DNA of 64,000 bases from Ilumatobacteraceae bacterium. Its GTDB lineage: Bacteria > Actinomycetota > Acidimicrobiia > Acidimicrobiales > Ilumatobacteraceae. How positions within the stretch are numbered: the first letter of the stretch is position 1; every line of letters starts with the position of its first letter. The stretch lies in assembly GCA_022425725.1 (NCBI GenBank), contig JAKMEY010000043.1, forward strand, positions 1 through 64,000, given 5' to 3'. Shown here piece by piece: positions 45,579 to 46,817 of the stretch. The notes below the pieces were generated by a model. It was given only the letters and a program-made list of their open reading frames with translations, searched no databases and had not been told where the DNA came from. Both the position numbers and the translations under genes were made by a program.

Positions 45579-45594
45579 GTTACCCACGGGTAAC
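45579..45594. promoter_or_regulatory. 16-bp perfect palindrome over the acyl-CoA dehydrogenase promoter
   Basis: GTTACCC-AC-GGGTAAC is a perfect inverted repeat of seven bases per arm. Its right arm overlaps TAACTT (45591-45596), a -10-like box six bases before the ATG at 45603. The overlap of operator and promoter, and no ribosome binding site, suggest a repressor site controlling a leaderless gene; a TetR-type fatty-acid regulator is a plausible guess. Confidence 0.6.
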
Positions 45595-45602
45595 TTTTAG
45601 AC

Positions 45603-46817
45603 ATGAGTGAATTTTCGATGGCCCTCAACGACGACCAGCAACAGATAAAAGACTGGACACACGGATTTGCCGAAGACGTCATGCGTCCAGCTGGCGCCGA
45701 ATGGGACGAACGCGAAGAGTTCCCGTATCCGGTAGTGCAGGAGGCGGCAAAGATTGGGCTCTACGGCTGGGAGTTCTTGATGAATGCTGGGCAAGATCGC
45801 ACCGGTCTTACGTTGCCAGTTGCGGTTGAAGAACTGTTCTGGGGTGATGCTGGCCTTGGCATGGCGATCATGGGAAGTGGCCTTGCCGCAGCAGGCATCG
45901 CAGGTAATGGCACGCCCGAGCAGACGATGGAGTGGGTACCGCAGTGTTACGGCGATGCGAATGACGTGAAGCTTGGAGCATTTTGTGTGAGTGAGCCAGA
46001 CGCCGGCAGTGACGTGTCGAACCTACGCACACGTGCTGTGTACGACGAGGCGAATGACGAATGGGTGCTCAATGGTACGAAAGCATGGATCACGAACGGT
46101 GGTATCGCCGATGTGCACGTCGTCGTCGCTGCAGTCGACCCAGAGTTGAAGGGACGTGGCCAAGCGTCGTTTGTGATTCCTCCGAACACGAAGGGCCTCT
46201 CGCAGGGTCAGAAGTACATGAAGCATGGCATCCGTGCATCGCACACCGCAGAAGTAGTGCTTGATGATGTACGTGTTCCGGGGTCATGTTTGCTCGGCGG
46301 GAAAGAAAAACTCGATGCCAAACTGGCCCGGGCTCGAGAGGCCGGCACATCTGGTGCACCGCAGCCGGCAATGAAGACGTTTGAAGCAACGCGCCCGACG
46401 GTGGGGGCGCAGGCACTTGGTATTGCTCGAGCCGCGTATGAGTATTCACTCGAGTACGCAAAAGAACGCCACGCCTTCGGCAAGCCGATCATCATGAACC
46501 AGGCGATTGCATTCAAGTTGGCAAACATGATCACCGAGATCGATGCGAGTCGTCTGCTGATTTGGCGCGCGGCGTGGCTTGCTCGCAATGGTGGATTCAC
46601 CAATGCCGAAGGCTCGATGAGCAAGTGGAAGGCCTCAGAGGTCGCAGTCCGAGTAACTGAAGAAGCCATTCAGATTCTCGGTGGCTATGGCTACACCCGG
46701 GAGTACCCGGTGGAGCGTTGGCATCGAGACGCAAAGATTCACACCATCTTTGAGGGAACGAGTGAGATTCAGCAACTCGTTATCGCTCGGGCGATTTCAG
46801 GTCTGCGCGTCGAATAA
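45603..46817 (+). CDS. Acyl-CoA dehydrogenase
   Basis: An FAD enzyme that makes the alpha-beta double bond of acyl-CoA, 404 residues long. LGAFCVSEPDAGSDVSNLRTRA is the FAD-binding region and HAFGKPIIMNQAIAFKLA the C-terminal signature. The base region ends in the conserved EYPVERWHRDAKIHTIFEGTSEIQQLVIAR. A Glu in YEGT-like position is present (FEGTSE). The substrate chain is unknown. The start is leaderless under the palindrome described above. The EthD-like gene follows 103 bases downstream. Confidence 0.93.
   Translation: MSEFSMALNDDQQQIKDWTHGFAEDVMRPAGAEWDEREEFPYPVVQEAAKIGLYGWEFLMNAGQDRTGLTLPVAVEELFWGDAGLGMAIMGSGLAAAGIAGNGTPEQTMEWVPQCYGDANDVKLGAFCVSEPDAGSDVSNLRTRAVYDEANDEWVLNGTKAWITNGGIADVHVVVAAVDPELKGRGQASFVIPPNTKGLSQGQKYMKHGIRASHTAEVVLDDVRVPGSCLLGGKEKLDAKLARAREAGTSGAPQPAMKTFEATRPTVGAQALGIARAAYEYSLEYAKERHAFGKPIIMNQAIAFKLANMITEIDASRLLIWRAAWLARNGGFTNAEGSMSKWKASEVAVRVTEEAIQILGGYGYTREYPVERWHRDAKIHTIFEGTSEIQQLVIARAISGLRVE

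Follow-up and report, generated by a model that had tools for sequence, protein, structure and literature searches.

The palindrome GTTACCCACGGGTAAC in front of an acyl-CoA dehydrogenase (ACAD) gene is, judging from sequence comparison, most probably the operator of an acyl-CoA-responsive, FasR-related TetR repressor that would occlude the -10 box of leaderless promoters. Comparison of related genomes supports the conservation of the site, the sharing of it among targets and its link to one TetR family. The palindrome lies in the window, as we call the whole stretch of 64,000 nucleotides that was analysed. The features are as follows.

45579..45594, no strand assigned: operator palindrome GTTACCCACGGGTAAC, 7-bp arms, 2-bp spacer, 0 mismatches
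45580-45593, inside the palindrome GTTACCCACGGGTAAC: operator core TTACC-N4-GGTAA
45591..45596, + strand: predicted -10 element TAACTT (TANNNT), first T 12 bases before the ATG
45597..45602, + strand: six-base spacer TTAGAC between TAACTT and the ATG at 45603, no Shine-Dalgarno sequence
45603..46817, + strand: ACAD, 404 aa, short-chain-like (Pfam PF02771, PF02770, PF00441)
G000:C28:10500-11090, outside the window: TetR P0002, own copy

Palindrome and promoter

The preliminary description of this DNA had reported a perfect 16-bp palindrome (GTTACCC and GGGTAAC around AC) over TAACTT, with TAACTT six bases before a start codon that has no ribosome binding site. Both were confirmed, with the palindrome at 45579-45594, the hexamer at 45591-45596, and TTAGAC followed by the ATG at 45603. 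TAAC is the overlap of the right operator arm with TAACTT, and within the 20 bases upstream of the ACAD ATG no stretch matches AGGAGG at more than 3/6. The available text of PMC3160421 treats a TANNNT located about 12 bp ahead of the start codon as the mark of leaderless genes in Actinobacteria, and the available text of PMC3898074 gives TANNNT as the -10 element of M. tuberculosis. The ACAD gene has TANNNT about 12 bases before its start codon and no Shine-Dalgarno sequence, and its start is predicted to be leaderless. The downstream gene had been described as an acyl-CoA dehydrogenase, and the Pfam domains of the 404-aa ORF agree. Its nearest solved structures include short-chain acyl-CoA dehydrogenases; when it was compared with NCBIfam equivalogs, no cut-off was reached.

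Conservation of the site

The sequence of the palindrome alone proves little because the window has 13 perfect 7-2-7 palindromes versus a mean of 4.4 in mononucleotide shuffles. When up to three mismatches are allowed, the consensus matches the window once, with 0.96 matches expected, and so shows no enrichment there. The significance of the palindrome lies in its conservation and in which genes share the site. ACAD matches were found in 53 of 61 genomes. The genus comparison covered 16 genomes, with a site counted at 9/10 or more core matches; three genus genomes (69-78% complete) yielded no ACAD ortholog. All 13 genus orthologs found have the core TTACC-N4-GGTAA at this threshold, 10 of them perfectly, and the core starts 23 or 24 bases before the ATG in every one. 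Mean information at positions -24 to -7 of these 13 promoters is 1.37 bits per column versus 0.39 upstream, and with 10 family members added (n=23) it is 1.29 versus 0.21. Per-base conservation is 84-100% for the predicted -10 TAACTT across the 13 promoters of the genus; for the left arm TTACC, which lies beyond the -10, it is 69-100% when the family members are included (23 promoters). The ACAD site of many other relatives lies about 30-110 bases upstream. The element GGTAACTT is still found downstream of the displaced site in, for example, G038, G047, G048, G053, and G058, which suggests that the operator and the -10 box move as one unit. Upstream of ACAD, tandem palindromes with a distance of 16 bases (L041, L044) or 21 bases (L199) were seen and suggest two dimers side by side.

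That the palindrome arose by chance has a negligible probability: such palindromes are common in the window, but every genus ortholog found keeps this one and functionally related genes share it, and a chance origin is ruled out by conservation. Another explanation would be that GGTAACTT is merely an extended -10 promoter element and the palindrome has no binder. The right arm does overlap the -10 and, upstream of EtfB, is conserved better than the left, and GGTAACTT recurs at a constant distance from the ATG. We nevertheless regard this as very improbable, since the left arm is well conserved although it lies outside the -10, full palindromes stand in tandem in some larger genomes, and the sites track the TetR gene, as described below.

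Genes sharing the site

With no more than one mismatch allowed, a scan of the own genome found 23 sites versus 47 for the reversed control, and another loose scan was likewise not enriched over the reversed pattern (28 versus 59). Among the 23, only those of ACAD, Ccr, and EtfB end 11 or fewer bases before a start. The remaining sites are 17 inside ORFs, one in neither class, and two upstream at 82 and 104 bases, the former before a doubtful ORF and the latter before an ORF read as ribosomal protein S2. Position alone separates the likely own-genome sites from noise. The Ccr site ends 9 bases before the start, with TAGGTT-6-ATG there, again TANNNT; from the EtfB site there are 2 bases to the first ATG and 11 to the likely one. 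Ccr was recognized as crotonyl-CoA carboxylase/reductase (TIGR01751, 535.5 bits). Downstream of its gene (L407:3475-5259) comes a short gene, read as a glyoxalase-type epimerase; the ccr gene also overlaps, on the opposite strand, the 5' end of a long ORF with thiolase-like sequence.

A genome scan had been proposed earlier, with hits expected before acyl-CoA genes and a TetR-type regulator. The first expectation held for the three start-proximal sites, while most of the 23 are scattered. The second failed in the own genus, where the TetR gene has no site before it, but held in the order, where exact sites precede one TetR family. A scan of the own genome alone would miss the TetR gene because its promoter has no site in the window's genus.

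Within the genus, a site at 9/10 or more was found upstream of EtfB in 13 of 15 cases and of Ccr in 10 of 16 (13 of 16 at 8/10 or more). Of two hbd paralogs, the one found ahead of a mutase gene in several loci has the site in 5 of 6 cases, and the other in 0 of 12 (loci for 12 of 16 matches). The reversed motif never reached 9 at the genus EtfB, Ccr, and hbd loci. A search for TTACC-N4-GGTAACTT on both strands of 23 genomes, one mismatch being allowed, gave 40 matches versus 11 for its reverse.

The exact 16-mer occurs at 92 sites in 148 genomes of the order versus 6 for the reversed control. Seventy-one of these sites were examined, and three of the other 21 are known ACAD promoters. Acyl-CoA or lipid genes, or the one TetR family, follow 58 of the 71 sites; several target labels were obtained by taking the gene at the site as its own reference, with a name from Pfam. 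Of these sites, 21 belong to orthologs of the window ACAD and 11 to the TetR family. A thiolase follows five (two shared with Ccr) and a second thiolase four. Three sites each precede a 600-aa ACAD, another ACAD, and 3-hydroxybutyryl-CoA dehydrogenase; four precede further ACAD/enoyl-CoA hydratase or AMP-binding enzymes; two precede glycerol-3-phosphate dehydrogenase, and two are at a lipase or hydrolase. The other 13 of the 71 have no clear lipid target (one glycosyltransferase, two weak distant ACAD matches, and 10 unlabelled). An ethylmalonyl-only regulon was considered and dropped, as the order-wide scan gave a broader acyl-CoA regulon. The palindrome was also noted at glycerol-3-phosphate dehydrogenase and glycosyltransferase genes (L180, L181, L153, L096), and the regulon may thus extend to the use of glycerol and to a glycosylation step.

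Candidate regulator

On comparative grounds, the P0002-family TetR is most likely the binder of the site, as the best candidate. P0002 has a TetR_N domain (PF00440, 60.8 bits), and the gene end upstream of it looks alike by eye in the family relatives L155, L187, and L198. Of the 85 genomes that have a strong TetR match (>160 bits), 48 contain exact sites, versus 3 of 63 without one (p = 5e-12, a value that, like those below, overstates independence because the genomes are related). Twenty-six genomes could be scored for both the TetR and the ACAD promoter with upstream sequence, G041 being dropped because of a contig end. All 20 genomes whose TetR match is strong had an ACAD promoter site at 9/10 or more, versus 1 of 6 with a weak match or none (p = 9e-5). 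The partial match in G043 is a TetR that departs from the family in its C-terminal half; when it is counted as present, the figures are 20 of 21 versus 1 of 5 (p = 0.0016). In 5 of the 21 genomes with both genes (G041, G046, G048, G055, and G057), the TetR gene is at most 4 kb from ACAD.

TetR promoters were surveyed in the best 80 of 534 matching loci from named records, which overlap in part with the genomes bearing G numbers here. The best upstream 14-mer scored 9-10 in 33 loci, 7-8 in 4, and 5-6 in 43; thus 47 of the 80 promoters have no site at 9/10 or more. The reversed motif reached this threshold in 0 of 80 and never scored above 8. In the window's genus, none of the 12 TetR promoters scored has a site, and the own promoter was read by eye (G000:C28 L104, L406; L235-L247); autoregulation therefore appears lost there, while the targets keep their sites. 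Outside the order, 16 loci were tried, and 14 of the 15 TetR promoters scored have no site. The own genome has 11 TetR_N matches, and the loci of its other TetR genes score at best 8/10. A perfect palindrome CTACCAAATGGTAG, 8/10 to the consensus, lies at L108:1691-1704, where 22 bases separate it from the start of a different TetR gene of the own genome; it adjoins a reductase-like ORF on the opposite strand. The records L297 and L308 are MAGs titled Bifidobacterium breve that carry the same TetR as Acidimicrobiia, and their titles look wrong.

Comparison with known systems

FasR of M. tuberculosis (Rv3208, a TetR protein) is the best PDB sequence match of P0002 (6o6p, E 2e-24). It is also the best fold match of the modelled L249 ortholog (6o6o, TM 0.84, 32% identity). 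In the fold search with this model (mean pLDDT 89), FasR ranks 1-5 with TM 0.81-0.85, followed by a Rhodococcus TetR and Bacillus FadR. The model is consistent with a TetR fold bearing an acyl-CoA-binding domain as in FasR. The best NCBIfam model of P0002 is that of FasR (NF053731), and because its 118.9 bits are below the 330-bit cut-off, P0002 is filed as a FasR relative and not as FasR. According to the available text of PMC7382501, FasR is an acyl-CoA-binding regulator of lipid genes that is released from DNA by acyl-CoA of C16 or longer. It activates fas-acpS, as stated there and in the available text of PMC7652896, whereas P0002 is a predicted repressor of genes for acyl-CoA breakdown and assimilation. 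The 25-bp FasR oligonucleotide in the available text of PMC7382501 matches TTACC-N4-GGTAA at 5/10 in full windows, a score reached by 64% of shuffles. With this one 25-mer, a window overhanging the end by one base gives 7/10, reached by 4.8% of shuffles. A weak resemblance of the FasR oligonucleotide to TTACC-N4-GGTAA is possible.

Bacillus FadR controls a beta-oxidation regulon that includes ETF genes and is induced by acyl-CoA, and its operator sequence differs from the GTTACCCACGGGTAAC site. This TetR protein matches the L249 model in fold (3whb, 3whc) with about 20% identity, and the PDB title of 3whc names stearoyl-CoA as present in the entry. By analogy, Bacillus FadR is the closest functional parallel. 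CcrR of Methylobacterium extorquens is reportedly, in work of Hu and Lidstrom, a TetR activator of ccr in the ethylmalonyl-CoA pathway, and its site is said to be a 14-bp palindrome far upstream of the ccr promoter. As an activator, and in the place of its site, it would differ from the system here, in which the predicted acyl-CoA operator overlaps the predicted -10. The FadR of Thermus thermophilus is a TetR regulator of fatty acid genes. Its consensus TTRNACYNRGTNYAA, given in the available text of PMC5597230, is palindromic and has other spacing and another core than TTACC-N4-GGTAA.

Proposed mechanism

A dimer of the P0002-type TetR on TTACC-N4-GGTAA would cover part of TANNNT and block RNA polymerase. 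Accumulating acyl-CoA would bind the regulator, which would then leave the operator, and the leaderless ACAD mRNA could be made from the freed promoter. The same switch would control the ETF electron acceptor and Ccr in the own genome. In relatives it would also act on thiolases, 3-hydroxybutyryl-CoA dehydrogenase, other ACADs, and glycerol-3-phosphate dehydrogenase, and in many of them on the regulator's own gene. We infer binding, repression rather than activation, a leaderless mRNA, and an acyl-CoA effector. Repression is predicted since a dimer at the overlap of the right arm and the -10 should exclude the polymerase, and derepression by acyl-CoA since FasR is released by acyl-CoA of C16 or longer (available text of PMC7382501). 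As FasR is an activator, repression here would be a change of role. A palindromic site in the promoters of acyl-CoA genes, as found here, is what a TetR-type acyl-CoA-responsive regulator of fatty acid genes would be expected to have. The earlier proposal of a repressor operator over a leaderless promoter is thus supported by comparison, with the repression and the leaderless mRNA as its predicted parts.

The FasR-like TetR could instead bind the site and activate, as FasR, the nearest characterised relative, does at fas-acpS according to the available texts of PMC7382501 and PMC7652896. This is improbable, because the overlap with the predicted -10 and the distance of 9 bases to the ATG put the site where a bound dimer should block the polymerase, and because many relatives also have it at the beginning of their TetR gene, an arrangement that resembles autorepression. 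It is quite improbable that the binder is another regulator with which the TetR merely shares its distribution. Such a regulator would fit the own-genus TetR promoter without a site, the 3 of 51 site-bearing genomes without a strong TetR match, and G037 (84% complete, 510 contigs), which has an ACAD site and a weak TetR match only. It would also fit the CTACCAAATGGTAG palindrome before the second own-genome TetR (L108), and the evidence for the TetR is comparative only. Against it stand the 11 of 71 exact order sites that precede one TetR family and the co-occurrence of the ACAD site with this TetR. Repression by the P0002-family TetR is the reading preferred here.

Significance

The operator and the regulon appear to be new, and an acyl-CoA-responsive TetR regulon is known as a kind. 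No description of this operator or regulon in Acidimicrobiia was found among the top-ranked matches listed in a literature search that covered few subscription papers. A further proposal, which we put forward as speculative and rather doubtful, is that a FasR-type regulator was rewired in Acidimicrobiales from the activation of fatty acid synthesis to the joint repression of acyl-CoA oxidation and the ethylmalonyl-CoA pathway. Its operator would have been fused into a leaderless -10, it may sense short-chain acyl-CoA (for example crotonyl-CoA, not long-chain), and in the small-genome genus of the window it would have lost the link to its own promoter.

The site offers an example, as predicted, of a repressor site built into a leaderless -10 box. 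The analysis provides a predicted operator, a predicted regulator, and a list of predicted targets for the acyl-CoA metabolism of a little-studied bacterial class. A predicted site common to genes of fatty-acid breakdown and of acetyl-CoA assimilation would place beta-oxidation under common control with the ETF electron acceptor and the carboxylating enzyme Ccr.
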